A stretch of 64,000 nt of DNA from NCBI GenBank assembly GCA_027623555.1, contig JAQBSZ010000011.1, forward strand, positions 1-64,000, in the 5' to 3' direction. The first letter of the stretch is position 1. Each line of letters begins with the position of its first letter. A program made the translations under genes and the position numbers. This document shows, piece by piece, positions 4,235-64,000 of this stretch. Source of the stretch: Pseudomonadota bacterium. Its GTDB lineage: Bacteria; Pseudomonadota; Gammaproteobacteria; Pseudomonadales; Pseudohongiellaceae. Below the pieces are notes generated by a model, which worked only from the letters and a program-made list of their open reading frames with translations, was not told the DNA's origin and did no database searches.

Positions 4235-4752
4235 ATGTTCCTCTTGGTTGACACTGCATTGATTGGATGAAACAACGTGGTGGAGATCGCCCGGGTGACG
4301 ATACTCAGCACCCGGCTCACCAGCTCCGGGTAGGCGGCAAACAGGAAGCGCAGCGGGAATGGGACCGTCAGCACCCACTGACGGATCGGTCTGACCGGCA
4401 GTACTTCGTCCACCAGCAGGGCGGCGCTTTCCACCGTGCGGCGGGCGCCGCAGCTGGGGCAGAAGCCTCTTCGTTTGCAGGAGAAAGCCACCAGCTTTTC
4501 ATGGTGGCAATTCTCGCAGCGCACTCTCAGAAAGCCGTGCTCCAGCCACCCGCACTTGAGGAAATCGGCAAACTCTTTTTGCACATAGGCAGGTAATGGT
4601 CGGCCCGTAGCAGCCTGGGTTTCCAAAAACGCTGGGTAGTGCTTGTGCACCAACTGGTACAGGAGAGTCTGTTCGGGTTGATGGCGCCGGTAACGCGGTT
4701 TTGTGGGCGCGAGTTCTGCCGCATCAGTAGTGACTTGACCAAAGGAGTACAT
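4231..4752 (-). pseudogene. truncated IS91-type transposase, second copy
   Basis: The reading frame has the N-terminal zinc-binding domain (CENC, SCKRRGFCPSCGARR, VDEVLP) and continues further than the copy at 329, into VRPIRQWVLTVPFPLRFLFAAYPEL, the beginning of the Y2-transposase domain. Similarity stops near TRAIST (about nt 4270). The remaining residues (LFHPINAVSTKRNI) read into the leader of the reductase gene. The catalytic tyrosines are lost, so it cannot transpose. It is oriented opposite to the fragment at 329 and the two proteins are similar but not identical over roughly 100 residues, so they are related insertions and not one recently duplicated element. Confidence 0.85.
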
Positions 4753-4933
4753 ACCGGAATCCGTTCCAGGGTATGCGGAGGTAGTTTAGACAAATGTTTG
4801 TTATCAGGCGAAATAATCGAAGATATTGGCTATGACCCGGGATGCCTGAAAGCCGCGCAGCAACGCCCGCAGGGTGAGGAATTCAGCTTAGCGTTATATT
4901 CGTGGCTCACGACCTGATCCGGATTAATAACCC

Positions 4934-4961
4934 AAAAAAAGGGGCTCCCATTGGAAGCCCC
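4934..4961 (-). terminator. Rho-independent terminator of the TonB receptor gene
   Basis: Read on the minus strand, a GC-rich stem (GGGGCTTCC pairing with GGAGCCCC, one bulged base, short loop) is followed by a run of seven T. It lies about 40 bp beyond the stop codon of the receptor at 5001. Confidence 0.9.
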
Positions 4962-5000
4962 TAAAGAGAGAAGTATACACGTAGGTATACATCATCGGAT

Positions 5001-7919
5001 CTACAGCTCGAGAGAAACTCGTGCGTAGATCATTCGACCCATTGCGTCGTAAAGCCGCTCTTCAGTACCGCCCAACTCAGAGATGCGCTGGGGTCTTCTG
5101 TCGAACAGATTGCGTGAGCCAGCAGTCAAGGTCAGTTCGCTGCCGAATGCTTCCAGGCCTCGGTAGTTATACGCGAAGTCCTCCACATGGGATGCGCGTA
5201 ACTCGGTAACCGTCTTGGGCACTACACTGGAGTGTAGTCCAGCCAGGAAATTACCCTGAAAGCCATCGTAGCGTAAACTGTGCAGGTAATGGGAAGTCAG
5301 GTTGGCGCTGTGGTCACCGTTGACCCAACCTATTCGGAAATTACCCTTGACTCGTGGCATCGGAGGGACCGCACCGGTGCCGTTGTTACGATGACCCACA
5401 GCATCATTGACCGGGTCTTTAGCCGAAAGCTGAAAGGAATACTCATCCAGGTAAGTAGCCACCAGGTTCAGGCTAAATGAACCGATATCATTTAGATTGA
5501 ACATGTCTGGCAACTCAAACTGATAATTGAAGTCCAGGTCGTATGCCTGGACCAACATGTTAGAAGCATTCGAGCTACTCTGAAACACCCGCACGATTTC
5601 GGCCAGGTTGTTAGGGTCCCGGACCACGCGCTTGTCAGAGCGCGGATCATTTACCCAGTTAGCCACCTGAGTCAGAGTCGGCTTCTGTCCCGCAGGGACT
5701 GCACCAAAGGCTTGCTGGAAGTTGAAGAAATCGTTGGCCAGGATATCCTGCGAGTTCGTTGCCACGATGCGGTCGGTGAAGTCCGTCTCGCTGTAAGTCA
5801 GTGACAGTCTCATGCCATCGATGATGTCCCAGTCAAAACCGGCACTGACAGTATCTGCCGATTCTGGCACCAGGTTCGGATTACCCTGATTACAACTCGA
5901 GGTGAACGCGGCGAAGATTGTGAAAGGATCCGCTATATTCTGCAGACCACAAACCTGAGGTGAGGTGAGCGCATTCAGAGAAGGGGCAATAAACGAAGTT
6001 CCCTTGCTGGCACGCAGTGTCAGATTGTTGAACGGACTATAGACGATACCGTATTTAGGGTCGGTAGAATTCTGCCCGGTACTGTAATCTTCATCCCTTA
6101 CTGCCAGTTGCAGTTCCAGGTTGTTAAGCACAGGCAACGACAATTCGGCAAAGAATGAATCCACCTGACGCCCACCTGAGTTTGGCAGTTCCTGCGATCC
6201 AATCCACTGATCGTTTTGCTGCACATAGGACGCAGGCGAATCATCAAATTGCTCGTCTCGCCGCTGGTACCCCAGGGCGGCTCCTACCGGACCACCAGGC
6301 AGTTCAATGCTACCCAGAGGCACGCTACCGTTAATAACCAGATCGAATGTTTGTAGCCGTTCTTCGTTACGTTCTCTTGCGTAGTTTACGGTCGAATCCG
6401 CAACGGCCTGGGTGTTTGCATTCGCAGCGTCGGTTACAAAAGGCGTAAAACAGGCCTCTCGATCAGTCGCCACGTCACAGCGCAGACCCTGGTTCAGGCC
6501 GCCAAAGCTGCCTTCATAGTCCTTATCATTGTCCACCTCCTGTGACCACATGTAGGCTGCATGGCCTTCCCAGCCTTCCAAGTAAGGCACATTAAAGTCA
6601 GCCTGTAATACTGCTCGACTGCCGAAGAAATGACCGTCACGTGGTGACGACCCATCGCTATTGAAAATGGAGGGCAGTGTGCCGTGCTTGGCCCAGGGTC
6701 GCCAGGAAGCGAAGGACACATCTTCATTAAACGGGATGCCGTTAGGATCGAGGATCACTGTGCCGAAGGGATCGCCGCCGACACGGTCCGGAACTCCATC
6801 ACCATTGGCATCAAGTGCAAATAGCTGATTGCCGTTGGCATCCAATGCCGGAAATGGATTGCCGGGAATTTCACCGCGCACAATTGGCAGTTCAGTAACA
6901 CGACCTCCCGGATTAATAGGGGAGCCACGCACCTGGTGCTTCACATCCCATAAGCTGTATTGGGCATTAACTGACAAATCATTGCTGAAGTCATAGCTGG
7001 CGCTGGTAAACAGCGTGCCCTGTTGAGTTGGATAGCGATAATCCCAGAACTCACCATAGTCGTAAGCACAGTTGGTGGGACTGCGCAGAAAACCAAATTC
7101 TCCATTCTTGATTTTGGTGGGATCTTCATGAGCGGCGCCACAGCCTGGATCGGCCTGGACTGCACTGGATCCTGTTAAGGCACCGTTGGCGTCCCGTAGA
7201 GGCACACGGTAGTCACCTGGCGTAGCCGTACTGGACCAGACGAAGGCTGATCTCAGTGTATCCGGACGATCGCGCATTTCAAGACGACTATGCTCACGCC
7301 AGCCACCGGCTACAACTATATCGATACCATTAAATTCGGTGCCGTACAAAGCCTGAAATTGAACATCATTATAGTCGCCCTGATCATCACCCTGACTCAT
7401 GTGCTCAAGTTTGAACCCATCGTAGGATTTGATAGGCACGAAGTTAACCACACCCGCCACTGCCTGAGATCCATACAGTGCTGCGGCGCCATCTGTCACA
7501 ATATCCAGGCGTTGAATGGCGATCTGTGGCAATAGAATGTTGACGTTGGAACTTACGTTACGAATACCATCCAACAGGTCCAGTGTGGCACCAGCTCCCA
7601 GGCCACGTAAGTTAAGAGAAGTGGCAATATTCTGTGCACCGGTAAAGGCGTTAGCCGTCACCGTAGTGCCCTGATTGAAGCTCAAGTTATGTATTACATC
7701 ACCCATATTCGGTGTTCCGGCGGCAGCAATCTCGTCGGCAGAAATCTGGGTAATGGGGGAGGCCGCGCGGAAACCTTCCGTGCGACGGATGTACGAGCCG
7801 GTGACAATGACCTCTTCTACCTGAGAGTCCTGTTGGGCTAGTGAGATCCCTGAGAGTGGGATGAGCGACATTGAAATAGCCGCACAAAGCAGACGTCTTC
7901 TATGTGGAATAAACTGCAT
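5001..7919 (-). CDS. TonB-dependent outer-membrane receptor
   Basis: A 972-residue protein. A Sec signal (LLCAAISMSLIPLSGISLAQQ) precedes a TonB-box-like EEVIVTGSYIRR, then the plug domain with SLNLRGLGAGATLDLLDG and RLDIVTDGAAALYGSQAVAGVVNF, then a long 22-strand-type barrel with Asn/Asp-rich loops. The last residues end in alternating hydrophobics and a terminal Leu (ARVSLEL), as usual for receptors assembled by BAM. I place the start at 7919 because GGAGAG precedes it; the frame extends 15 codons upstream without a better site. Such receptors import siderophores, vitamins, saccharides or peptides at the expense of proton motive force. The size and plug wording fit the group related to iron or oligomer uptake, but no substrate can be assigned and no degradative partner lies beside it. 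Confidence 0.93.
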   Translation of the reverse strand: MQFIPHRRRLLCAAISMSLIPLSGISLAQQDSQVEEVIVTGSYIRRTEGFRAASPITQISADEIAAAGTPNMGDVIHNLSFNQGTTVTANAFTGAQNIATSLNLRGLGAGATLDLLDGIRNVSSNVNILLPQIAIQRLDIVTDGAAALYGSQAVAGVVNFVPIKSYDGFKLEHMSQGDDQGDYNDVQFQALYGTEFNGIDIVVAGGWREHSRLEMRDRPDTLRSAFVWSSTATPGDYRVPLRDANGALTGSSAVQADPGCGAAHEDPTKIKNGEFGFLRSPTNCAYDYGEFWDYRYPTQQGTLFTSASYDFSNDLSVNAQYSLWDVKHQVRGSPINPGGRVTELPIVRGEIPGNPFPALDANGNQLFALDANGDGVPDRVGGDPFGTVILDPNGIPFNEDVSFASWRPWAKHGTLPSIFNSDGSSPRDGHFFGSRAVLQADFNVPYLEGWEGHAAYMWSQEVDNDKDYEGSFGGLNQGLRCDVATDREACFTPFVTDAANANTQAVADSTVNYARERNEERLQTFDLVINGSVPLGSIELPGGPVGAALGYQRRDEQFDDSPASYVQQNDQWIGSQELPNSGGRQVDSFFAELSLPVLNNLELQLAVRDEDYSTGQNSTDPKYGIVYSPFNNLTLRASKGTSFIAPSLNALTSPQVCGLQNIADPFTIFAAFTSSCNQGNPNLVPESADTVSAGFDWDIIDGMRLSLTYSETDFTDRIVATNSQDILANDFFNFQQAFGAVPAGQKPTLTQVANWVNDPRSDKRVVRDPNNLAEIVRVFQSSSNASNMLVQAYDLDFNYQFELPDMFNLNDIGSFSLNLVATYLDEYSFQLSAKDPVNDAVGHRNNGTGAVPPMPRVKGNFRIGWVNGDHSANLTSHYLHSLRYDGFQGNFLAGLHSSVVPKTVTELRASHVEDFAYNYRGLEAFGSELTLTAGSRNLFDRRPQRISELGGTEERLYDAMGRMIYARVSLEL

Positions 7920-8606: not shown

Positions 8607-8956
8607 TCTCCTCTATTAAAGGCATTGGACCGTAAATCGAAGTGCTACTCAATTACGCGGGGATTGCCCTCCCTGCACAGTCCCCTGGTGGAATTTTGAC
8701 TATCACCGGGATGATCCTGGGCATAAGGATTGGAATTATTTTTACCGGCCAACAATCAAAATGGAAGCAAGCCAGTAGCATGTATTGGATATCCGTCCAA
8801 ATAGTTAGCAATGCTTAACTTCGAACGTTGAAATATTTGCTAACTAAGTCGGTCTGTATACTCTCAAGTAAAGATTTCTTTGCTTCAAAAAAATAGTCCC
8901 AATTCCCTTCATCGTGGCACTAGTTGAAATGCAGAATCACCCGTCATAAAAAAACC
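8607..8956. other. intergenic stretch between IS3 remnant and PiT permease
   Basis: No gene assigned. The first third is GC-richer and might be leftover IS sequence, but no frame gives a recognisable protein. The AT-rich last part probably held the promoter of the permease. Confidence 0.4.
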
Positions 8957-9913
8957 ATGTTTGTAGTCTTACTTGTGCTTGCCGTATTGTTTCTAGCCTG
9001 TTGGAATGGGGCTAACGACAATTTCAAAGGTGTCGCAACGCTTTATGGTAGCGGCACAGTGAATTTCCGCACTGGAATAATCCTCGCTACCATCGCAACA
9101 TTATTTGGGTCTGTATGCGCAATTTTTGTCGCTCAAGATTTGGTGAGTAGTTTTTCCGGTAAGGGTCTGGTACCGGATGAAACTGCAGGCAGCATTAACT
9201 TCTTGATCGCAGTCGGGTTTGGGGCTGCCTGTACCGTATTGCTGGCAACTCGCCTGGGATTTCCTATTTCGACGACCCACAGCCTGGTGGGAGGCTTGTT
9301 AGGTGCTGGACTAAAGTCAGTTGGCAGCCAGGTAACCTTCAGCCAGTTGAGCAACGCCTTTTTTATTCCCCTAATATTTAGCCCTCTGCTTGCCTTAGTG
9401 CTGGCGATGATAGCTTACTGGATATTTACCACACTCCGTAAACGTCTGGGGCTTACCAAAGAAAGTTGCGTATGCATTGGTAAAGAACGCCAGATTATCC
9501 CGGTGAGGAATCTTGCGGATTTCGATGAGTTTAATCTATCTGGTGACCAACAGTTGTTAAACTCCGGTATTACAGTAACTTTGGCTAGTACAGATGAATG
9601 CGCGAACCTCTATTCTGATCAGTTTGCAGGAGTTTATGTTCAAAAAATATTGGACTTCGCTCATGCATGCAGCGCCATCATAGTGTCATTTGCGAGGGGC
9701 CTTAATGGCACTCCAAAAATTGCCGGCCTCCTGGTCGCGAGTCTGTCGCTGAATATCCGTTGGGGAATGATCGCAATTTCCATTGCTATCGCAATTTCCA
9801 TTGCTATCGCAATTGGAGGCCTGCTGAATGCGAGGCGTGTCGTTGAAACCATGAGTAATAAAATCACCGACTTGAATCATGGGCTAGGGTTTTCAGCTTA
9901 TAGGAAGTATTAA
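8957..9913 (+). pseudogene. PiT-family inorganic phosphate permease, C-terminally truncated
   Basis: The start of the protein is a good PiT (PF01384) half: LACWNGANDNFKGVATLYGSG contains the hallmark GANDxxKG, and GFPISTTHSLVGGLLGAGLKS is the first conserved P-x-S-T-TH repeat. A hydrophilic loop follows, then GLNGTPKIAGLLVA and ETMSNKITDLNHGLGFSA, where the frame abruptly ends in YRKY. Family members continue with a second STTH repeat and two or three more helices, absent here. An 18-bp tandem repeat expands one membrane segment (9770-9814). The start at 8957 is chosen by alignment with the family; an upstream ATG at 8924 is in frame. Probably non-functional, since both inverted PiT repeats are normally needed for transport. 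Confidence 0.8.
9770..9814. repeat. 18-bp tandem repeat inside the PiT gene
   Basis: ATCGCAATTTCCATTGCT occurs twice perfectly (9770-9787, 9788-9805), followed by half a third copy. It encodes Ile-Ala-Ile-Ser-Ile-Ala repeats in a membrane helix. A separate 10-bp duplication (GGCTATCTCC twice, 9914-9933) directly follows the premature stop. Confidence 0.95.
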
Positions 9914-10062
9914 GGCTATCTCCGGCTATCTCCGAACCTTGATTGTGTCTAGCTTCGTGAGCGGTGAGCCCGTTGATGCCCGTTAACCAGCCAAATTTCC
10001 GAGGAAACCGATGACTTCTGCGCTCCAATGCGCCATCAACTCCCCTTCATTGCTGAGTGAGT

Positions 10063-10782
10063 TCAACCGGGCTCGCCAAACTGATAGTTCAAATTCAGGC
10101 TCGTGTCGTCAGACCGCCAACCGATGCTGCTATAGAAGTTCAGCGCCTCGGAATCGGAGTGGTCGCGCCAGCCATTTTCTGTAAACGATTCCAGGTTGAA
10201 GTAATACGCGAGTTGACCGTCGTTGCCACCGTATTCAATATTGGCCGCTGTTCGACCGAAAGAGCCGGTACTGACCTGGATGTTGGTGCCTTCGAAGTCG
10301 AAGCCATCCTTTATGTCGATCACCAGAGACCCACCGAGGCTATTCAGGCCAAACAAGGGAATGGCACCACCGGAAAGGGTAACACCCTGGATAGCCGACT
10401 GGGGTAGCAAGTCCCAATTCACTGCATCACCCAGCGGTTCGTTTATACGTACACCATTCTGGTAGACTGCAATGCCCTGGGCCAGTCCTAACAGCGGTGA
10501 GACTGAGAATCCTCGATACTGGAGATCTGGCTGCAGCGGATTGTTCTGGGCATCATTGAGGGAGATGCTGGAGAAACTCTGCTTGAGAAAATCGGCAATG
10601 CCAACTGCAGCAATATTCTCCAGATCTGCAGCACTAGCGGTCTGAATTGGATAGGGAATTTTACGGCGATCCTGACTGGCACCGGCCGGGACTATTCCGA
10701 TAACCACGATCTCTTCCAGATCCTGTGCCAGAACTTCGGTGCTAAGTGCCAGTGCCAGCAGTGAAACCAGCTTTATCCTCAT
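10063..10782 (-). pseudogene. TonB-dependent receptor fragment: signal and plug only
   Basis: Signal peptide (MRIKLVSLLALALSTEVLAQ), TonB box-like LEEIVVIG and a complete plug (QPDLQYRGFSVSPLLGLAQG, VRINEPLGDAVNWDLLP, PLFGLNSLGGSLVIDIKDG), then the first two or three barrel strands ending at LNLNYQFGEPG and a stop. A full receptor would have some 450 more residues. The wording is of the group that has a GDAVNWDLLP motif and differs from the receptor at 5001 and from the plug-less one at 38294. The start at 10782 removes an unlikely 8-residue leader. Confidence 0.85.
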
Positions 10783-11014
10783 GAAAACTCCAATGCATCG
10801 GACCAAAGCGGCTCTGTGCAGCCCGGCAGTATATCAGAATGCCTTATTTTTCAGAATCTTATACTTCGATCGCGCCCGAACCTCCAAAGCTTGCGACTCA
10901 TCCCACATCATGAACCTGCCGTCCAATCCACTGCGTTCTTTGACGGCACTGCAACGGACAGGTAGATTTACCTGATGACTTTTTTCACCTGGTAAATACC
11001 TCATAGGAGTTGGA

Positions 11015-11707
11015 ATGGCCACGGTACTGATTACAGGAACCAACAGAGGGGTCGGCTTGGAGTTCGTACGACAGTTTCTGGCGCGTGGCGATAAGGTGTT
11101 GGCAGCCTGTCGTGATCCGGACGCTGCAGAGGAGTTGGGAAGGTTCCGCGAAGAGAACGGGAATTTGCAATTGTTTACACTCGATGTTTCCAGTCAGAAA
11201 TCTATGGAGACTTTTACGATGCAATTGAGTGGGCAGGCGATCGACATCTTCATCAATAATGCAGGTGTCTATGGTCCGAGAGATTCCGGGTTTGGAAATG
11301 TCGACACGCAGCAGTGGTCCGAGGTGATGCAGGTTAATGCGATGGCACCGCTGATACTTACCCAACTGCTCATTAACAATCTGCGCCAGAGTGACACGAA
11401 GAAGTTGGCCTATATTACTTCGAAGATGGGCTCGATAGATGACAACACCGGCGGTGGCTCCTATGTCTATCGCAGTTCCAAGGCTGCCCTGAACGCGGTG
11501 GTTAAAAGTGTCGCAGTGGATTTAGGTAGCAATGGCTTCAGCGTGGCGGTATTACACCCGGGTTGGGTGCGGACCGACATGGGTGGGCCAAGCGGGCTTA
11601 TCGACACGCAAACCAGCGTGTCAGGCATGATGCGGGTTATCGATAGTATGAGCGAACAGAACAGCGGCAGCTTTTTCAATTATGACGGCAGCATCATTCC
11701 CTGGTAA
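11015..11707 (+). CDS. SDR-family NAD(P)-dependent oxidoreductase
   Basis: The 230-residue product has the classical SDR pattern: TGTNRGVG dinucleotide-binding loop (residues 7-14), NNAG (81-84), a Ser in the YITSKMGSI strand, and the catalytic Y152-x3-K156. The wording LITGTNRGVGLEFVRQF and PGWVRTDMGG is typical of the C-factor/sniffer-like carbonyl reductase branch. It is cytoplasmic, with no partner gene nearby. A ribosome binding site (AGGAG) precedes the start. Substrate unknown. Confidence 0.9.
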   Translation: MATVLITGTNRGVGLEFVRQFLARGDKVLAACRDPDAAEELGRFREENGNLQLFTLDVSSQKSMETFTMQLSGQAIDIFINNAGVYGPRDSGFGNVDTQQWSEVMQVNAMAPLILTQLLINNLRQSDTKKLAYITSKMGSIDDNTGGGSYVYRSSKAALNAVVKSVAVDLGSNGFSVAVLHPGWVRTDMGGPSGLIDTQTSVSGMMRVIDSMSEQNSGSFFNYDGSIIPW

Positions 11708-54605: not shown

Positions 54606-55946
54606 TTATGCCGTGGGGTGAAACAGCTCATCGACCCGGCCGGTATTATCGGCGAAGCCTTCCAGGTGGACACTCATGCTATCCAGCAGACTCAAATGCA
54701 GGTTCGCCAATGGCGTCTGTTCCTGGTAGCGGATGTGGCGGCCACCGGATATGCCGGTATTCGCGCCACTGGCCAATACGATCGGCAGGTTAGAGTGATC
54801 GTGGATGTCCGGATTACCCATGCCACTGCCCATCAGGTAAGTCGTGTTATCCAACAGCGTGCCATTGCCTTCATCCACAGCGTCGAGTCGCTCCAACAAG
54901 TATCCAAAGAGTGACACATGGTACTGGTTTATCTTGGCCAGTTTCTCCAGTTGCACCGGGTCATTGCCGTGGTGCGAAACAGGATGATGGGGCTCGGTCA
55001 CGCCGATCTGTGGATAGGTGCGGGTACTGGCCTCTCTCGCCAGTTGAAAGGAGACGACTCGGGTCAGGTCGGCCTGCAGGGCCAGCGTCTGCAGATCGAT
55101 CATGAGTTTTACATGATCTTCCCAGTCCGCAGGGATACTGGAAGGCCGTGAGAGCTCAGGCAGCGGCGCGGCTTCGGTTTGCTGCTGCGCCATCTGAATG
55201 CGCCGTTCGACTTCGCGCACGGTGGACAGGTATTCATCGACTTTAACGCGATCACCAGCACCGAGCTTGTTCTGGTAATTCGCGATGTCCTCCATCACCC
55301 AGTCTAACAGGCTGGCATTCTTGGACAGCTCCGCCTGGCGCTGCTGCGGCGTGCCACCATCGCCGAACAGACGTTCGAACAGTATGCGCGGATCGGCTTC
55401 GGTAGGCAGAGGTGTGGTGGGCGAGGACCAGGACAGGCTGTTCTGATACACACAGGCATAGCCATTGTCACAGTTACCCACCAGCGAGATCAGGTCGGTA
55501 CCCAGTTCCAGCGAGGGGAAGGGTGTTTCTCCGCCAATTCTCTGTGCTGCAATCTGGTCGACCGTGGTGCCCAGCTCGTAGTCGCTTCCCTCGGTGCGTT
55601 TGGCCTGTACACAGCTTAGAAACGCGCAATTGGATGACGCATGGTTACCGGTGGTGTAGGCATCGCGAATCTCCAGGTTGGACATCACAGTAATCTTGTC
55701 CAGGAAAGGATTCAGCGCCGCCAGTGACGGCGTGAGCGCGCCAAGCCGGCCAACCGTTTCGGGCACCCAGGGGTCCGGATTCATCCCCATGGGAATATAG
55801 AAGTAGCCGAGGCGACGGGTAACCTCGGCGGCCGAACCTGACTGCGCCAGCGCCGGTACCATGGCATCCAGCATTGGCAGAGCGACCGCCGCACCGAGGC
55901 CACGCAGAAACGTGCGGCGGGGTAAGGCTTTCTTGGTGATGATCAT
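54606..55946 (-). CDS. DUF1552-family Tat-exported protein
   Basis: 446 residues with a Tat signal (PRRTFLRGLGAAVALPMLD). The rest matches DUF1552: YFYIPMGMNPDPW, LEIRDAYTTGNHASSNCAFLS, QIAAQRIGG, CDNGYACVYQNSLSW and VTEPHHPVSHHGND. Members have a sulfatase/phosphatase-like (DUF1501-related) fold and always pair with the DUF1592 protein; function is not established. Its first codon overlaps the DUF1592 stop (ATGA). Confidence 0.92.
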   Translation of the reverse strand: MIITKKALPRRTFLRGLGAAVALPMLDAMVPALAQSGSAAEVTRRLGYFYIPMGMNPDPWVPETVGRLGALTPSLAALNPFLDKITVMSNLEIRDAYTTGNHASSNCAFLSCVQAKRTEGSDYELGTTVDQIAAQRIGGETPFPSLELGTDLISLVGNCDNGYACVYQNSLSWSSPTTPLPTEADPRILFERLFGDGGTPQQRQAELSKNASLLDWVMEDIANYQNKLGAGDRVKVDEYLSTVREVERRIQMAQQQTEAAPLPELSRPSSIPADWEDHVKLMIDLQTLALQADLTRVVSFQLAREASTRTYPQIGVTEPHHPVSHHGNDPVQLEKLAKINQYHVSLFGYLLERLDAVDEGNGTLLDNTTYLMGSGMGNPDIHDHSNLPIVLASGANTGISGGRHIRYQEQTPLANLHLSLLDSMSVHLEGFADNTGRVDELFHPTA

Positions 55947-58369
55947 TGGGTTCTCCTCATCTGGAAGGGAGTGCTGTTTACGATACCGAGAACCAGAGAC
56001 GAGAAGCGATAATCTTGCTCTGTCGCCTGGTTAAGAATTTTACGTATGGCCGGGCCGTCGTAGTATTCGAGACCGCGACCCAGTGCATAAGTTAAGAGTT
56101 TTTCGCTCATGGTGCCGACGAAGGCAGCGGGATTGTCCAGCAGGGCGCTGCGCAGACCGTTCACGCCTGCCAGGGGGTCACCGCCCGGTAAATTGCCCGT
56201 GGTATCGATTGAGGGATGATCGGTGTTGGGTTCACGCCATCTTCCGATAGCGTCGAAGTCTTCCATCACCAGCCCGATCGGGTCCATGACCTGGTGACAG
56301 GCCGCACAGGCCGGATTGGCGCGATGCTGTGCCATGCGGTCCCGCATGGTTTCTATTTTCACTTCAGAATGATCTTCAGCCAGCGCCGGTACATTATCCG
56401 GAGGTGGCGGCGGTGGAATGCCCAGTACATTTTCAAGCACCCATTTACCCCGTTGCACTGGCGAGGTGCGGGTGGCATAGGAAGTGACGGTGAGCACGCT
56501 GCCATGACCCAGCAGACCGAGTCGCGGGCTGTCTTGGGGCAGGCTTACCTTGCGGAAATGATCTCCGTACACATTGGGAATGTCATAGTGCCTGGCCAGC
56601 CTTTCGTTAAGAAAGGTGTAATCCGCGCTGAGAAGTTCCATCACGTCGCGGTCTTCGGCGATGATGGTCTTGAATAGCAGCTCGGTCTCCTGCCGCATGG
56701 CCTGGCGCAGGTTGTCATCGAAGTCTGGAAACAGGCGCGTGTTGGGATCGACACCGTCGAGGTTCCTCAGGTAGAGCCACTGGCTGGCGAAGTTCGATGC
56801 CAGCGCCTCTGCTTTCGGATCGGCTAACATGCGCTGAACCTGGGCGGCGAGCACCTCAGGATCGCTTAGCTGCTCCTGGATAGCCAGATCCAGCAATTCG
56901 GCATCGGGAATACTGCTCCATAAAAAGAAGGAAAGCCGGGACGCCAGATCCACATCACTCAGTGCGTAAACCTGCCCTGCTGCGAAATCAGCAGGATCCT
57001 GCTCGATGCGGAACAGGAACTGCGGGCTTACGAGCAAGGCCCGGATAGCCATCTCGATGCCCGCCTCGAATCCTTCTTCGTTGTTAACTCTCTCGAAGAA
57101 GGCCAGCGGCGTGGCGATATCGTCATCGGTAATGGGTCTTCTGAACGCTGTCTGAGCCAGCGGCGCCACGATGGATCGGGCACACTCGCTGGCGCTGACC
57201 GACTCGCCGGGCCGGCAGTTAAAGATGCGATCGCGGCTGGGCGTGCCTGAGATTCCGGTTGACTCAAACGGGCCACCGATGGATACCGAGTGCACCGCGG
57301 GTTGCTGGCGAGGGTGACGATCGCGATTGAAGTGGGCGATATAGGGCTGTCGGGTACTCTCCAGCAGGGCCGAGTTCTTCTTGATAAACGTCACCGCCAC
57401 AGCATGGGGTCCGGCAGTTACCGACGCAGAAGCTGTCAGGCCATCGCCGGCGCCCTGATCGGAGTAATAGAACGTGGCAAATCGTTCGGTGCGGTTCGGC
57501 ACTATCTCAAACAGGCCGACGCGTTCGCCGTCTATCGTCATCTCCATCTCGTGGGCTTCGGTGAGGCCTTCGATATTTTCATTGCGGTCCCGTGCCAGTA
57601 CCACATCGAGTCGGTACTCACCGTCGCGGGGAAAATGGTAAGCGAATGAAGTGCCGCCGCGAGTTCCAAACGGCAGTCCTTCAAGGCGATCTTCCTGGGT
57701 GAGGCTGGCAGCCACCAGTTCAACATGACTGGCGGGATTATGCAGTGGCGTACCTACCGCCAGTCGACTGATCTTCTGGGCCGCCGCGAGATAGCGTTCC
57801 ATCAGGGTTGGCGACAGGTTCGTCAAGTTGACGTTATCGAAGCCGTAACTGGCATCGTCCTTCGGTAGAAGTTCAGAGACATCGACCTCGACAGCAAGCA
57901 GATCGCGGATAGCATTCTGGTACTGGAGCCGGTTCAGGCGATTGAAGGTGGCGGTGCGACCCGGATTTGGGTTCTGCAAAGCCAGATTGTCCAGGGAGCT
58001 TTCCAGGTAGGCAGTGAACTGCTGAAACGTGGCCGCATCGGGTCGCGGCATGCCAGTTGGGGGCATGGCATTGGCGCGCAGCTTCTTCAGTACTTGCTCC
58101 CACACCTGAGGATGGTCAGACACAGTCGTCACGTCGATACTGTCCAGTGCCAGCCCACCGGTTAGCAGGGTCTGGTTATGGCAGGCAACGCAGTATTGAT
58201 TGACCAGTGTCGAGTGGTCGCCGGGCTTGCCAGTACTGGCCAGGGGAACAGCGACCGCGCCCGGTGCAGTGCTGGCAAGTTCAGGAGTCTGGGTGGATAC
58301 AAGAAAGAATGCCCCCATGGCGAGCAGCCCGAGCAAGACTACCGAAGTGATAAGGCCCGATCTTCTCAT
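55943..58369 (-). CDS. DUF1587/1592/1588/1585-type protein with c-type cytochrome motifs
   Basis: 808 residues. It begins with a signal or anchor helix, then a CVACH heme-c motif (C60, C63, H64), a DUF1587 part (RLNRLQYQNAIRDLL), a beta domain, DUF1595 and DUF1592 (FLFRIEQDPAD, SRLSFFLWSSIPDAELL), DUF1588 (GLLGHGSVLTVTSYATRTSPVQRGKW) and DUF1585 (end). NPACAACHQVMDP is a second CxxCH. This is the conserved planctomycete-style partner of DUF1552; it is probably a periplasmic electron-transfer or oxidase protein, but no activity is known. Confidence 0.92.
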   Translation of the reverse strand: MRRSGLITSVVLLGLLAMGAFFLVSTQTPELASTAPGAVAVPLASTGKPGDHSTLVNQYCVACHNQTLLTGGLALDSIDVTTVSDHPQVWEQVLKKLRANAMPPTGMPRPDAATFQQFTAYLESSLDNLALQNPNPGRTATFNRLNRLQYQNAIRDLLAVEVDVSELLPKDDASYGFDNVNLTNLSPTLMERYLAAAQKISRLAVGTPLHNPASHVELVAASLTQEDRLEGLPFGTRGGTSFAYHFPRDGEYRLDVVLARDRNENIEGLTEAHEMEMTIDGERVGLFEIVPNRTERFATFYYSDQGAGDGLTASASVTAGPHAVAVTFIKKNSALLESTRQPYIAHFNRDRHPRQQPAVHSVSIGGPFESTGISGTPSRDRIFNCRPGESVSASECARSIVAPLAQTAFRRPITDDDIATPLAFFERVNNEEGFEAGIEMAIRALLVSPQFLFRIEQDPADFAAGQVYALSDVDLASRLSFFLWSSIPDAELLDLAIQEQLSDPEVLAAQVQRMLADPKAEALASNFASQWLYLRNLDGVDPNTRLFPDFDDNLRQAMRQETELLFKTIIAEDRDVMELLSADYTFLNERLARHYDIPNVYGDHFRKVSLPQDSPRLGLLGHGSVLTVTSYATRTSPVQRGKWVLENVLGIPPPPPPDNVPALAEDHSEVKIETMRDRMAQHRANPACAACHQVMDPIGLVMEDFDAIGRWREPNTDHPSIDTTGNLPGGDPLAGVNGLRSALLDNPAAFVGTMSEKLLTYALGRGLEYYDGPAIRKILNQATEQDYRFSSLVLGIVNSTPFQMRRTQ

Positions 58370-58674: not shown

Positions 58675-59346
58675 CTATTCCCAGATATAGTGTTTCGGTA
58701 GGCTATTAGAATCAATGATGATGCATTTGCTGCTTTTATCGATATCGTAGATCCTGTCTTTTTGGAGTTTTCGGATTACTCGGGACACGGTTTCTCGCTC
58801 CTTACCCAACCGGTCCGCAATCTGCTGATGGGTCCATCTGTCGTGGGTAAGAAAGGTTCCATCGCCATTCTTTTTCGAGTAAATACTGTTAGTGAGTAGC
58901 CGAATGATATTGGTTCGAACGTCAAGCAGGGCAGTGTCGATGAGTTTGATGGATAACTCTCGAATACGAGAGATGAGATCATTGATCAGAAGCTTCGACG
59001 TCATCTTGTTTTCCAGCGGCTTGGTGAAAGCCTTTTTGGGAATCTCCAGGATTATGCTATCTGAGGTTGTGGTCACCGACGCGGAGCGTTTCTCATCATC
59101 TAAAAGCGCGTACTCGCCAAAATAACACCCTTCATCTAGGTCATTTATCACGTACTGGTATCTATCCACTACGTTAAACACCTTAACCCCTCCTGATTGA
59201 ATAACATACATCGAATTCGATTCATCTCCTTCCGAGAATATGCGCACGTTCTTCTTTATAACGTGCGTTGTCGCTGCCCGCCGAACTGCTTGCATGTCAG
59301 CTTCGTTAAGATGAGAAAAAATCGAGATATTCTTGAGTGATTTCAT
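58675..59346 (-). CDS. Crp/Fnr-family transcriptional regulator
   Basis: 223 residues. The cyclic-nucleotide-binding domain runs from FSHLNEADMQAVRRAATTHV to FGEYALLDDEKRSASV, a long helix follows, and the C-terminal HTH is THQQIADRLGKERETVSRVIRKL. It lacks the cysteine cluster of FNR, so it senses a nucleotide or something else. GGAGAAG precedes the ATG at 59346. It is divergent from the small membrane protein at 59635 and the P450/DyP genes beyond it; regulation of those is plausible but unproven. Confidence 0.9.
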   Translation of the reverse strand: MKSLKNISIFSHLNEADMQAVRRAATTHVIKKNVRIFSEGDESNSMYVIQSGGVKVFNVVDRYQYVINDLDEGCYFGEYALLDDEKRSASVTTTSDSIILEIPKKAFTKPLENKMTSKLLINDLISRIRELSIKLIDTALLDVRTNIIRLLTNSIYSKKNGDGTFLTHDRWTHQQIADRLGKERETVSRVIRKLQKDRIYDIDKSSKCIIIDSNSLPKHYIWE

Positions 59347-59634
59347 AACACTACTTCTCCAAAGGAGCACTTCATCGGCTTTTGCCTAGCCATATTGAAT
59401 AGCAGATTCAATCAACTTTAGTTCGCTGCTTGCCAGCAACCGGATTCAGGCCCGGTTGATTGGAATCTGCGGTGAATATCGGTGTTGGAAATCGACCAAT
59501 TTCGGTGACATTTGTTACAGAACTATTATACGGACTCTCTACTATACCCTCTACGCCTGGTCTCTGCCGCGCAGAGACTACTCGTATAATATTGCTCGAT
59601 ATCACCCATAGTTCAGGTCACGCGACATCCAGAT

Positions 59635-59943
59635 ATGAGTTATTTCAAGTCAAAAATGGCCCACGCCGAGAAAAGAAAGCTACAGATAGGCAGCAGGAAT
59701 GCCCCGGCCTCTATCGCGGGCTTTAAGCATTCCAAAATAGCCTGGAGAATACTGAATCTCATCTTCCTGCTATCGGTACTTGCGGCTGGAGTAGTCTTGT
59801 TTGTACCTGGCGATCTCGTGGAAAAGTGGCTAATGCTTGGATATACCGGCGTAGTCGCGGCGGGAATCGAATACGGATTCGACATTTTCGTATTGGCTTG
59901 CATGCCGCTGCTCCACTTTCTGGCTTGCTGGATAAAACGGTAG
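59635..59943 (+). CDS. small two-helix membrane protein
   Basis: 102 residues. A charged N-terminus (HAEKRKLQIGSRNAPA), then two membrane helices (IAWRILNLIFLLSVLAAGVVLFV and FDIFVLACMPLLHFLACW) with a short GDLVEKWLMLGYTGVVAAGIEYG between. No known family. No good ribosome binding site is visible. It lies 197 bp before the P450-like gene on the same strand, and could be part of the same unit or an independent small gene. Confidence 0.5.
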   Translation: MSYFKSKMAHAEKRKLQIGSRNAPASIAGFKHSKIAWRILNLIFLLSVLAAGVVLFVPGDLVEKWLMLGYTGVVAAGIEYGFDIFVLACMPLLHFLACWIKR

Positions 59944-60140: not shown

Positions 60141-62645
60141 ATGAGCTATAGAGAAGATTTTGAAAATGCGGGAAAACGATCGCAATATGCCGCAACAGAG
60201 TTGCTCTGGCACTGGTTGCAGAGCGATGAGCACCGCCCGAGGTTGTTTCACGAGTTTCGTACGGATAAAAAACCACCTTTTCTGAAATTTCAAAGCATGG
60301 CCAGTAAGGGTGAAGATGAAAATAAAGTCTTTAAACAGGAAGTAGTTATCCTGTTCGATCCTGAAGATATAAAACAAGCGCTGCAAGACCAGAATTTTAG
60401 TAACGATCCCTACAAGCCCCTTGGCAGCGGAACATCCGTGCTGGCCAGCGATGACGAGGAACCTCAGAATCATGAAGTCAAGCGTGAAGTTCTTGCTTCG
60501 GCGTTTAAGAATAAAGATCTCAGACCATTTTTGTTCCTAGATAGTGTAACAGCACTCGCCTGTCATCACGGCATCGTGTTGGCGAGAAAGAAAAAGGAAT
60601 TTAATTTTGTTAGCGATGTGGCCGAGCAGTCTGCCCTGATATTTGCCTCGGGTTTGTTTGGCATTCCGACACGTCACCATTACCTGATGCAGGAACTGCT
60701 GCGCAAGAGTCTCGATGCCATGGCTTACCAGATGTTCTCCCGGCACTTTACTAATGACGCACTGGCTTTGCAGACTGGAAATATTGCCATGGGCGGGTTG
60801 GCCAAGGTGATCGATGAATTGCTGCAGGAAGCCGCCTGTCCTCCCTATTTCGACGAGCTGCAACAGATTCTGTGGCGCGGCCTGGGGAGCGAAGATGAGG
60901 AAGTTAAGCAGGAAAGAATAGCGGCCGTGAAGAAAGTGCTGGATGTCGTGCCAGCAGTGGATATTGACAAATTGCTCGGACTCAAAGAAGCCAAGTTGAA
61001 AGGGCATCCGCAAGCTGAGGAATTGGAAGCAATGTACGCCGCCCATCTGCGCGAACTCGATAAATTGAAAGAGAAAACCGCCGATGAGCGCGAGATTGTC
61101 AGAGACATACTCAAATACTTCGATGAGGCACTGAACTACCACGAAGTGCGGGAATGGGCGAAAGACAGACTGACGATTAATAGCCTCGAACTGGAAGAGA
61201 ATGAATTCAACAAAGATCTACTGAGCATTTTCCGCCTTATGCGAGAGGATAAAGAGCGGGCAGAGGATGATTTGATCAGGAAAAAACTGGATCCTTTTGA
61301 TGACGGCAATTTTATCTACAGAAAAACCATTATTGAGGTACTCGCCGAGAATCCTGGCAATCATTCAGGCAATGAACTTATTGTTGACATCGTTGCGGCG
61401 ATTGCAGGCACGGTAGGGAATATCACCGCTGGAGCCAGCATCGCGCTAAATGAAATTCTGCATGATAAAGGCGGCAGCCGAGAGGCGATCAATATTGTGC
61501 GAGGAATAATGGAGGCGGCGCTGGAGGAGGGCGCGGAAGAAGAGAAAGACAAAGATAAAGATAAAGCTAAGCCGCTGCCAAGATTGCCCCATCGACTTCC
61601 GGTAGGGCAGCGCGAAAGAGGGCAATTCTTCGGACAGGCGAAAAAGCGTAGCGCTGAAATAGCAAACTACGTCAAGGAAGCGTTGCGGCTCTACCCCCCG
61701 GCACCGTTTGTTCCCCGGTTAGCCAAAAATACGATCACGCTTGCAAAGAATGAGAGGAAAAGCACGAAAGTGGAAATAGCGGCAAAGCAGGTGGAATTGC
61801 TTCCTTTGGGTTCGCTAACTCGAGGTAGCACTCAAACAGAAACGGAGAGCTTCAAAGTGGAAATAGCGGCAAAGCAGGTGGTATTGCTTCCTTTGGGTTC
61901 GCTAACTCGAGGTAGCACTCAAACAGAAACGGAGAGCTTCAATGCGAAGCGTGATAAACGTAATCTGGATGAGAGTCACAATTACTTATTCGGCTATCCA
62001 GAACACGGTAGTGAACACACCCATCGCTGTCTGGGAGACTATATATCGATACCGCTGATCTCAAATATTGTAGCTAATGTTCTCCTGCTCGATGGCATCG
62101 ACCTGGTGGATCCTGAAACTACTGAATCCAGAAAGGATATCGCTGACCTGATAGCTCCTACGCTGAAAAAGAAGTGGGGATTCATCTGCGAGTCGCTCGA
62201 TCTCAGTCAGCAATTGTCTGCACAGATCAATCAATCGCCATTGAATGTGATTATGAAAGTGCGAACACCGGTTGGCTCTCACGCCGAAGTACTGAAGCGA
62301 ATCATTCAGTACGGCGCTCCGACCATACAATATTTGCTTGAGTCTTCGAATATGGTGCATTTCGCACGCTTCGTGTTTTTAAACAACGATACGGAATTGG
62401 GACTCTTTACATCTTACGATGGTGAGTTTGATCCCTATATAAGACACTTTGCCAATGCCGCAGGACCCCTATTCGACCAGATATTTGCTCATATTCAGGA
62501 CCCGCCGCTAATGCCAGTACGGGAAAATCCTTCTGCATTTATCGAGCATATCAAACGCTATGACAGATCACCCGTCTCGGACTACTTCTATACCTCTTAT
62601 CCTGAAAAGACCGTGACAGAAATTCTCGGCAAAGCCAGCAAATAA
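60141..62645 (+). CDS. large cytochrome P450-like protein with extra C-terminal domain
   Basis: 834 residues, well above the usual 400-500 for bacterial P450s. The ExxR motif of helix K is EALR in VKEALRLYPPAPFVPR (E about residue 513), and the heme-thiolate Cys is C630 in FGYPEHGSEHTHRCLG. IVAAIAGTVGNITAGAS lies in the I-helix position, with no canonical AGxxTT. Between about 225 and 380 is a charged helical insertion, and a Lys/Asp-rich linker at ~465-480. Residues ~740-834 (MVHFARFVFLNNDTELGLFT, YDGEFDPYIRHFAN) form a separate domain found near DyP-type peroxidases. An 87-bp tandem repeat lengthens the stretch before the heme Cys. The DyP gene follows after 22 bp, so an operon is likely. 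Substrate and redox partner are unknown. Confidence 0.75.
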   Translation: MSYREDFENAGKRSQYAATELLWHWLQSDEHRPRLFHEFRTDKKPPFLKFQSMASKGEDENKVFKQEVVILFDPEDIKQALQDQNFSNDPYKPLGSGTSVLASDDEEPQNHEVKREVLASAFKNKDLRPFLFLDSVTALACHHGIVLARKKKEFNFVSDVAEQSALIFASGLFGIPTRHHYLMQELLRKSLDAMAYQMFSRHFTNDALALQTGNIAMGGLAKVIDELLQEAACPPYFDELQQILWRGLGSEDEEVKQERIAAVKKVLDVVPAVDIDKLLGLKEAKLKGHPQAEELEAMYAAHLRELDKLKEKTADEREIVRDILKYFDEALNYHEVREWAKDRLTINSLELEENEFNKDLLSIFRLMREDKERAEDDLIRKKLDPFDDGNFIYRKTIIEVLAENPGNHSGNELIVDIVAAIAGTVGNITAGASIALNEILHDKGGSREAINIVRGIMEAALEEGAEEEKDKDKDKAKPLPRLPHRLPVGQRERGQFFGQAKKRSAEIANYVKEALRLYPPAPFVPRLAKNTITLAKNERKSTKVEIAAKQVELLPLGSLTRGSTQTETESFKVEIAAKQVVLLPLGSLTRGSTQTETESFNAKRDKRNLDESHNYLFGYPEHGSEHTHRCLGDYISIPLISNIVANVLLLDGIDLVDPETTESRKDIADLIAPTLKKKWGFICESLDLSQQLSAQINQSPLNVIMKVRTPVGSHAEVLKRIIQYGAPTIQYLLESSNMVHFARFVFLNNDTELGLFTSYDGEFDPYIRHFANAAGPLFDQIFAHIQDPPLMPVRENPSAFIEHIKRYDRSPVSDYFYTSYPEKTVTEILGKASK
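61767..61940. repeat. 87-bp tandem duplication inside the P450-like gene
   Basis: The 87-bp unit at 61767-61853 is repeated at 61854-61940 with one base change. Each copy encodes 29 residues including VEIAAKQV, LLPLGSLTRGST and ETESF. In normal P450s this region is a single strand-plus-loop leading from helix K to the heme loop, so the copy adds a second one. The near-identity points to a recent event. Confidence 0.95.
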
Positions 62646-62667
62646 CCAATATTGGATACTATGAGAA

Positions 62668-64000
62668 ATGGTTGATCGTACAAATATTGACGTAGAGGAA
62701 GTCCAACGCCTGGTGCTGCATGGATTCAATTACCATCGGACCTGGTATCTGATTCTGCAAGTGGAATCGAAGATTCTGGCGCGAGCGTTCCTAAGCAATC
62801 TCAGTCGCAATAAAAAGGATACTGCAAAGCCCGAGGTCCCGGTTATCGCTTTTTCCGGGAAGAAACGATCCTGGGCTTCAGGTGAGCACAAGGAAAAGTC
62901 CGATCTGAGCATTGCGTTCACTTATGCTGGTATGGATGCCCTGGATTTAGACGATGGCCTGCTCAGAGAGCCACTGCCAAAACTGGCCAATTCGTTCGTG
63001 CAAGGGGCTGCCAGGAGATCGTCTTCACTGGGCGATACCCGCGCAGATACAAGCCGGCAGTGGGAGCCTGCATTCAAATCCAACCGTGCACATATTGTTA
63101 TATCCATTCATGGCAATGATAAAGATCTCATTAAAACCATAGTGGAGGAGTTGAAAAAAATTGATGGCTGGAAAGGATTATCTGGCTGGTCAAATATTCA
63201 GGAGGGAAAACATCGGGGTACTGATCAGAATGACAGAAAGGAGCACTTCGGTTTCGTGGATGGTATTTCCCAACCAGTTATTCGCCGAGTTCATAATATC
63301 CAGGAAATTGAAGCACGCAGGGGGTACAGTATTCCTCCCTTCATGAAATATGAAGCTGGCGAATTTTTGTTGGGGCACCCCAATGAAGTCCGGGAGAATC
63401 GGTGGAGAGAACCGCTACTAAGCAACAAGGCAGCAAAATTTTATGGCAACGGCAGTTTCGCCGCCTTTCGAAAGATGGAGCAGGATGTTGCAGCCTACAG
63501 AAAATTTATCAAGGTCACGGCCAACCAGCACGCGATTCCGGAAAAATACCTCGAAGCCAAGCTTTGCGGCAGGAATAAGGATGGCACACCGTTAGTGAAT
63601 GCAGTGTCATCAAGCGCTGACTTAAACTCCTTCGGTTTTCGAGGGGATGCAGATGGAAGAAATTGCCCAATCGGTTCCCATATCAGGCGCCTCAATCCGC
63701 GCGACGATAAAGAAGTGATACCCAGGATGCGACGCCCGGTTATCCGTCGTGGCATTCCTTATGGGAAAGAATTCGAAGAATTCCCAGACCAGAAACGGGG
63801 ATTATTGGGCATGTTTTTCTGCGCCTCATTGGAGCAGCAGTTCGAATTTCTGATGCAGGATTGGGTTGATGAGACTCCTATTCGAGAGCCCGGCGCCAAT
63901 ACCAAGGACCCGCTAATCGGCAACCACGAATACAACACAAAAAACTATGTTATTCCTGTCGTTACTGGCAAACCCATTGAGGTTGAAGGTATCGCAAAGG
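62668..64000 (+). CDS. DyP-type heme peroxidase, 3' end beyond the window
   Basis: An open frame from the ATG at 62668 runs off the right edge (444 codons seen, no stop). The hallmark GxxDG motif is GFVDG (residues 195-199) in EHFGFVDGISQPVI, and the proximal heme His is H338 in CPIGSHIRRLNPR. The N-terminus has HGFNYHRTWYLILQVES. DyP peroxidases use hydrogen peroxide to oxidise dyes, lignin-type phenolics or other aromatics. The N-terminal segment before GFVDG is of normal length. It follows the P450-like gene after 22 bp, and no signal peptide is present, so both would act in the cytoplasm or on the inner membrane. The gene is incomplete only because the window ends. Confidence 0.9.
   Translation, partial: MVDRTNIDVEEVQRLVLHGFNYHRTWYLILQVESKILARAFLSNLSRNKKDTAKPEVPVIAFSGKKRSWASGEHKEKSDLSIAFTYAGMDALDLDDGLLREPLPKLANSFVQGAARRSSSLGDTRADTSRQWEPAFKSNRAHIVISIHGNDKDLIKTIVEELKKIDGWKGLSGWSNIQEGKHRGTDQNDRKEHFGFVDGISQPVIRRVHNIQEIEARRGYSIPPFMKYEAGEFLLGHPNEVRENRWREPLLSNKAAKFYGNGSFAAFRKMEQDVAAYRKFIKVTANQHAIPEKYLEAKLCGRNKDGTPLVNAVSSSADLNSFGFRGDADGRNCPIGSHIRRLNPRDDKEVIPRMRRPVIRRGIPYGKEFEEFPDQKRGLLGMFFCASLEQQFEFLMQDWVDETPIREPGANTKDPLIGNHEYNTKNYVIPVVTGKPIEVEGIAK

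Follow-up and report, generated by a model that had tools for sequence, protein, structure and literature searches.

Pairing of a heme peroxidase-type enzyme with a cytochrome P450, either in one polypeptide or as separate partners, is a feature of the fungal dioxygenase-P450 fusions (DOX-CYP; linoleate diol, epoxy alcohol, and allene oxide synthases) and of cyclooxygenase (COX) with prostacyclin synthase (PGIS). A published account describes the P450s of both groups as self-sufficient, with no need of a reductase, and places a distal Asn in the I-helix of PGIS and of plant allene oxide synthase (AOS) (PMC13049297). This study is focused on a comparable bacterial gene pair, a divergent P450-like gene followed by a DyP-type peroxidase gene, at the 3′ end of a 64,000-nucleotide stretch from a Pseudomonadota bacterium (Pseudohongiellaceae), hereafter the window. 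Its locus is read as a variant of a two-heme module found in bacteria, made up of a DyP, an unnamed companion domain, and usually another heme enzyme, in which an O2-independent P450 would use peroxide under cyclic-nucleotide control; as a whole, this reading is held at about even confidence. The composition of the module, its gene order, its fusions, the co-direction of its genes, and the peroxidase residues of its DyP are direct observations. By analogy, the module may work like the DOX-CYP and COX pairs, but it is not a member of them, because its peroxidase has no animal heme peroxidase domain: the window partner gave no animal heme peroxidase (COX-type) match in Pfam, only DyP domains. 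It further differs in the addition of the companion domain and in being bacterial. The module is widespread in bacteria and apparently undescribed, and a search confined to open-access full texts returned no publication recognisably concerned with either P450-DyP fusions or the companion.

The initial annotation, made from the letters of the window, had claimed two open reading frames (ORFs) with a 22-bp gap, an ExxR motif, Cys630 as heme ligand, and DyP motifs, all of which were recovered. Loci are designated by L numbers; L003 is the locus of the window and reaches past position 64000. This extension, suggested in the annotation, completed the DyP gene at 64128, a base that is also the first of a cyclase gene; the P450, DyP, and cyclase genes are three co-directional neighbours. 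The features of this part are as follows.

60141..62645, + strand: predicted divergent cytochrome P450 (residues 1-691) with a C-terminal DyP-companion domain (692-832), 834 aa
61404..61421, + strand: putative I-helix site A422-G-T-V-G426-N427, with Gly at the acid and Asn at the alcohol position, as aligned to the P450-fusion profile without per-column confidence
61677..61688, + strand: ExxR motif E513-A-L-R516, paired by hhalign with EAMR of the profile
61767..61940, + strand: 87-bp in-frame tandem duplication in the interval from ExxR to the heme loop (copies 61767-61853 and 61854-61940, 86/87 identical)
61989..62036, + strand: heme-ligand loop FGYPEHGSEHTHRC630LG, which starts at F617 and is six residues longer than FGxGxHxCxG
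62214..62636, + strand: DyP-companion domain, E 3e-46 with a companion profile built in part from this copy
62668..64128, + strand: predicted DyP-type peroxidase, 486 aa, crossing the window edge at 64000
64128-67478, + strand (L003:4629-7979, outside the window): class III cyclase-AAA_16-TPR protein, 1116 aa

The DyP of the window shares both domains of known DyP-type peroxidases, and its in-window piece exceeds the cut-offs of PF21105 (49.5 bits) and PF20628 (23.1 bits). The Pfam Dyp_perox_N model PF04261 was also tried and gave no match, the matching model being PF21105; the 444-aa in-window piece scored 78.4 bits with NCBIfam TIGR01413, under the cut-off of 100.5. The motifs GFVDG (195), SHIRR (337), and VIRRG (358) are present, and the first Arg of IRRG is presumably the distal Arg. 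The catalytic Asp, His, and Arg are kept in 93/93 aligned DyP domains, an alignment made before 20 further loci were fetched, and relatives in the PDB include 8re3 (E 3.3e-32). With both Pfam domains and the three catalytic residues, the protein is assigned to the DyP-type peroxidases, and its activity is predicted. What distinguishes it from known members is its company: a companion domain together with a further heme enzyme.

The companion domain was traced from the DyP side. A class-wide DyP search of 369 genomes gave three further loci, at which the DyP gene is flanked by small ORFs without a name or preceded by a fused region. In blastp within a nine-protein set, the C-terminal domain of the window P450 directly matched the fused region in L009 (E 1e-8) and a single ORF in both L007 (E 0.005) and L008 (E 0.001), and the remaining two ORFs were linked to it via these matches. 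Stand-alone companions of L051, L054, L056, and L060 share 38-40% identity with the copy of the window. With stop-to-stop frames and the companion profile, a companion was located within 3 kb of the DyP in 89/89 DyP loci examined, which upholds the suggestion of the initial annotation that the C-terminal domain is DyP-associated. Of these loci, 44 had been found via the DyP and not via the companion, i.e., 37, the window included, plus seven plasmid records; the latter were opened out of 65 with DyP matches and place the companion beside a DyP in four phyla (Cyanobacteriota, Acidobacteriota, Actinomycetota, and Pseudomonadota). The domain often occurs in two copies, which in fusions are separated by a hydrophobic stretch, as judged by eye. 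The companion relatives scanned had no Pfam match over cut-off, two had no NCBIfam match, and the sequences of the PDB contained no match to the domain. The companion is an unnamed protein family, and the other parts of the module belong to known families.

The second heme enzyme was counted in two samples. In the phylum sample, 27/398 genomes carry the companion domain; the DyP is adjacent in all 27, a P450 lies within 3 kb in 16, a catalase-like gene in seven, and a cyclase within 3 kb in seven. The weakest P450 calls among the 16 are that of the window itself (E 2e-4) and that of L137 (E 9e-13). In the order sample, 22/293 genomes carry the companion; among the 21 examined (G1174 was left out), a DyP is adjacent in 20, the contig of G1178 ending before any DyP, and a P450, a catalase-like gene, and a cyclase are found in 12, 4, and 9, respectively, with the contig of G1155 ending just after the DyP. 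At split loci the P450 is on the DyP strand in 22/22 cases, 0-2067 bp away. By simple arithmetic, even at a density of 20 P450 genes in 5 Mb, a 6-kb neighbourhood would include one by chance in 2-3% of cases. The catalase-like protein, which we take to belong to the y4iL-like family, has a profile match (E 1e-26) to an Agrobacterium gene annotated as catalase in L081. The claim that P450 and DyP form a recurrent pair is thus borne out by common strand and by fusion in both orders and has to be narrowed in one respect, in that the P450 is one of two alternative partners of the DyP, the other being the catalase-like protein.

The closest linkage is seen in fusion proteins. Two fusion queries returned 23 database proteins, 22 of which (P0122-P0143) are P450-companion-DyP fusions; P0139 is without most of the P450, and P0122 is identical to the query L012. 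One such fusion of 1443 aa is WP_011907039.1 on pNL2 of Novosphingobium aromaticivorans DSM 12444, and others occur at L118, L122-L124, L127, and L134. The reverse order, DyP-P450, is recognised by motifs in P0144 and forms, in the order of the window, a separate clade with a companion and a fusion of ~1000 aa (L178-L180, L184, L185, L187, L188). The P450 part of these reverse fusions is divergent, with E 2e-12 to 1e-20 to its own profile and a Cys loop present; two that were scanned scored 20.2 and 16.0 bits with Pfam p450, under the cut-off. A further type of fusion was noted at L125, also from this order (8655-11387 and 4269-7295), where a 911-codon frame joins a DyP to a catalase-like domain; beside it are a gene with an animal heme peroxidase match (PF03098, 231.9 bits) and a second gene of the catalase-like kind.

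The history of the partnership was followed on a DyP tree of 80 rows, obtained after 22 near-duplicate loci had been dropped, with eight rows of unknown context unlabelled. The label for a nearby P450, with loci cut by contig ends counted as lacking one, changes at least eight times on well-supported branches, which implies repeated gain or loss of the P450 partner. In this tree, the DyP of the window stands next to the type II loci, which consist of companion and DyP and, in scanned representatives, adjoin PLD and PhoD genes. A search of genome contigs with the window DyP as query gave no match, and a search of 399 genomes for neighbourhoods of its nearest kin returned only three genomes already known. 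The initial annotation had held that the module idea would fail if the P450-like gene occurred mostly without a DyP neighbour; for the related P450 family, seven of ten strong matches in 249 genomes are at DyP loci (four of the seven from one genus), and the other three are elsewhere, with no DyP in the 10.5-19 kb fetched around them, the window P450 itself being below the threshold of this count. Two of the three (L204:6341-8341 and L205:8013-10109) adjoin genes for RoxA-like di-heme cytochromes (PF21419). These belong to the same broader P450 family and are likewise paired with another heme protein, but there is no DyP or companion in the fetched 19 kb and 10.5 kb (to the contig end), respectively, and the E-T of the I-helix is kept.

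The window P450 is an outlying member of this group. It scored 18.5 bits with PF00067, below the cut-off of 22.8. An hhalign comparison with the profile of the forward DyP-linked P450s covered residues 404-657 (probability 93.5, E 2.2e-7), with both ExxR and Cys loop paired. When that profile was used in an hmmsearch, the real protein was listed, and 500 shuffled versions and the reversed sequence were all absent. The profile of the reverse-fusion P450s gave a probability of only 8. In the PDB sequences, phmmer found P450 YjiB (E 0.0015), the best stretch being residues 40-186 of the window protein. Membership of the cytochrome P450 superfamily, weak by Pfam, is suggested beyond chance because of the hhalign match, the motifs, and the fusion relatives. 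The protein shares with bacterial P450s of PF00067 the ExxR, an HxC heme loop, and a collinear profile match; it differs from them in its length of 834 aa, its P450 part exceeding the 459-column profile of related P450s by ~230 residues, in the companion domain, and in Gly-Asn instead of acid-Thr.

This last difference concerns the I-helix site, at which the acid-alcohol pair of O2 activation resides. By alignment the window P450 has Gly426-Asn427 and is without the pair. Among 29 locus P450s of the forward type, counted with near-duplicates kept and without the window and seven reverse fusions, the acid is replaced by Pro in 27, the exceptions being L135 and L175; the same replacement is found in 21/22 database fusions with data. 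The three related P450s away from DyP have E-T-T and keep the acid. According to the source named above, PGIS has ATQGN287 and plant AOS has Asn321 at this site; some enzymes can do without the Asn, and others have Thr or a nonpolar residue in its place (PMC13049297). The T-V-G-N427 of the window is reminiscent of the PGIS site, a likeness of a few residues and not proof.

A working model can be drawn from these parts. The module would comprise a DyP, one or two companion copies (here at the C-terminus of the P450), and a second heme enzyme, joined in a subset by a cyclase and a Crp. The companion domain may serve as a dock or scaffold that keeps both heme enzymes on a membrane or other lipid surface; the DyP, with peroxide, would convert a hydrophobic, lipid-like substrate to an oxidised or hydroperoxide form, and the P450, which in most members lacks the I-helix acid, would rearrange or use the DyP-made peroxide with no reductase, in analogy to PGIS or AOS acting after COX, lipoxygenase, or fungal dioxygenase. 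Lipid-type neighbours, tested in single representatives, include a patatin-like phospholipase gene between DyP and P450 (L119:6708-7739; PF01734, 80.7 bits), PLD in L060, PhoD and a lipid-transport-like domain in L054, a glutathione S-transferase (GST) in L044, and a GMC oxidoreductase in L120. As a separate observation, the catalase, companion, and DyP genes on an Agrobacterium plasmid (L081, 3974-10696) adjoin oleate hydratase and 3-hydroxyacyl-CoA dehydrogenase genes.

Cyclic-nucleotide genes form the last part of the model, in which the cyclase would make a signal that Crp reads, placing the operon under cyclic-nucleotide control, with this direction likewise conjectural. Class III cyclase domains occur at 17/89 loci (L003, L118, L122-L124, L126, L135, L137, L173, L178-L180, L184-L188), with Pfam confirmation at the window and eight others (L118, L123, L124, L126, L135, L137, L173, L178); the cyclase gene is upstream of the DyP gene on the same strand, downstream, or convergent, and the cyclases scanned carry TPR regions and often AAA. 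Crp-type regulators are encoded at 7/17 cyclase loci, i.e., the window and six of the other 16: between open frames, they are 39-160 bp from the fusion gene in L118, L122, L123, and L124, all of one genus, and 4.4 kb and 3.4 kb from the DyP in L135 and L186, both with a cyclase. One more Crp match, L139, shares a contig with the L012 fusion, at a distance of ~7.5 kb. The initial annotation had counted a Crp/Fnr regulator and a small membrane protein as parts of the system; both genes are present beside the pair, and the Crp recurs near some other members, but the 102-aa protein has no homolog at the other loci: it had no Pfam match, and at E 0.01 it matched only itself in 91 loci. The window cyclase scored 46.9 bits with PF00211 (cut-off 21.9) and keeps what we take to be the two metal-binding Asp (FCDIVG) and the base-specifying Lys of K-P-E-G-D. 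Such a cyclase also brings to mind an anti-phage defence of the Pycsar type, with the heme pair as effector, and PycC models of PADLOC do weakly match the cyclase domain (best E 4.6e-11). In the same scan, which covered P450, DyP, and cyclase, the P450 and the DyP were both without a PADLOC match at E 0.1 or better; of the further operon genes submitted to Pfam, none matched an effector of the Pycsar type, the cyclase has an AAA_16-TPR build, and cyclases are at 17/89 loci only. With weak PycC matches alone and no PycTM or PycTIR effector, this very improbable explanation was dropped. Separately, large TPR proteins are encoded directly 5′ of the fusion genes in L012 (14154-16664) and L077 (1465-3153), the latter annotated as a SARP-family regulator.

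Several results weigh against the two-heme module as read here, and those concerning the window P450 come first. This singleton protein carries long charged insertions as well as the recent 87-bp duplication, and it may be impaired. AlphaFold2 prediction of the full-length protein failed (mean pLDDT, the predicted local distance difference test, 35.9; pTM, the predicted template modelling score, 0.21) on a 13-row and partly wrong alignment, and realignment of the P450 parts mended the Cys loop in one alignment and left the I-helix unmended. The window copy could be a decaying or repurposed P450, heme-free or inactive and mainly a carrier of the companion for the DyP, with the module real elsewhere. 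No other homolog was found among 5.8 billion proteins (word search, 7996 candidates scored) or in 97 related genomes, the Pfam score is under the cut-off, the heme loop has its six-residue insertion in addition to the duplication, and type II loci (L051-L062) show that companion and DyP occur without a P450. By contrast, the 834-codon frame is open, and Cys630 in HTHRCLG, the HxC, E513ALR516, and the companion domain are intact. Decay or repurposing is considered unlikely, at a level that still makes it the foremost of the competing explanations.

The remaining contrary points concern the module at large. Four of the 27 companion genomes of the phylum sample have neither second heme enzyme, one of them (G655) having both loci near contig ends. 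The identity of the catalase-like protein is without library support, there being no Pfam match for two forms and no NCBIfam match for three. Structure prediction for the companion domain on a 23-row alignment also failed (pLDDT 49.1), and the clade of the window DyP otherwise consists of eight database DyPs, the rows without a context label. The lipid neighbours vary between locus types, non-lipid neighbours exist (Mur ligase with MraY-like in L113, an ABC-type ATPase in L130, an endonuclease/exonuclease/phosphatase family protein in L132), and the neighbours scanned in L010, L067, L122, and L137 had no match. In the window cyclase, Ser and Asn take the place of what is presumably the usual Asn/Arg pair, and its activity is uncertain because of this absence. 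The proposed substrate, peroxide use, and interaction are unproven and follow from sequence and context. Finally, the Glu of ExxR is absent in seven reverse fusions, all seven aligned reverse-fusion loci keep S-T-D-T-T, and P0144 keeps E-T; the generalisation that all DyP-linked P450s are without the I-helix acid was thereby ruled out. The retained O2-activation pair would suit an ordinary detoxification of peroxides or xenobiotics, in which oxidative or membrane stress co-regulates a DyP with a P450 of the monooxygenase type, the two sharing neither a substrate nor coupled chemistry. DyPs oxidise many aromatic compounds, and the GST gene adjoins the type I locus L044, in keeping with such a role. 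A tighter coupling is indicated by the two opposite fusion orders, by the dedicated companion in 89/89 loci, and by the replacement of the acid by Pro in the majority of forward members; simple detoxification appears improbable.

The surroundings of the three-gene operon contain the following further features.

58675..59370, - strand: Crp/Fnr-type regulator, divergent to the operon, with a cNMP-binding domain (PF00027, 67.3 bits) and a Crp helix-turn-helix (PF13545, 35.6 bits)
59635..59943, + strand: ORF for a 102-aa protein, a small membrane protein by eye
67695-68957 in window numbering (L003:8196-9458): three small genes 3′ of the cyclase, for 137, 131, and 134 aa

The sequence GEYALLDDEKRSA of the Crp/Fnr-type regulator includes a GE...RSA pattern, which we take to be its phosphate-binding pattern. 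The three small genes have no homologs at other loci, and the first has a sub-threshold Peptidase_C93 match. The guanine-plus-cytosine (GC) fraction is 0.43-0.49 from the Crp gene (58675) to ~68957 and 0.526 and 0.528 in the flanks, and the companion domain is found in 4/84 genomes of the genus, that of the window included; this region is read as an accessory island because of the low GC relative to its flanks and the sparse distribution of the companion. No Rfam match was obtained at L003:1-9800, promoter-like sites are rarer than in shuffles, and terminator-like sites are about as many as in shuffles. Directly preceding the island, at 54606-58369, are a gene for an 808-aa planctomycete-type cytochrome (PSCyt/PSD domains) and then a gene for 446 aa on the minus strand.

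Regarding what the module may signify, a bolder proposal can be made, which is tentative and rather unlikely as it stands: the module may be a bacterial counterpart of the COX cascade built from unrelated enzymes, in which a DyP, an O2-independent P450 or the catalase-like protein, and the companion would generate a lipid-derived oxidised mediator or damage signal tied to the cyclase and Crp. To our knowledge, the natural role of DyP peroxidases is open, the assays being with dyes. The companion domain, the second heme enzyme, the fusions in two orders, and the cyclic-nucleotide genes make this role experimentally approachable. If the P450 works on peroxides, the module would be an independent invention of peroxidase-P450 coupling, examples of which are so far known in animals and fungi and, with lipoxygenase, in plants.

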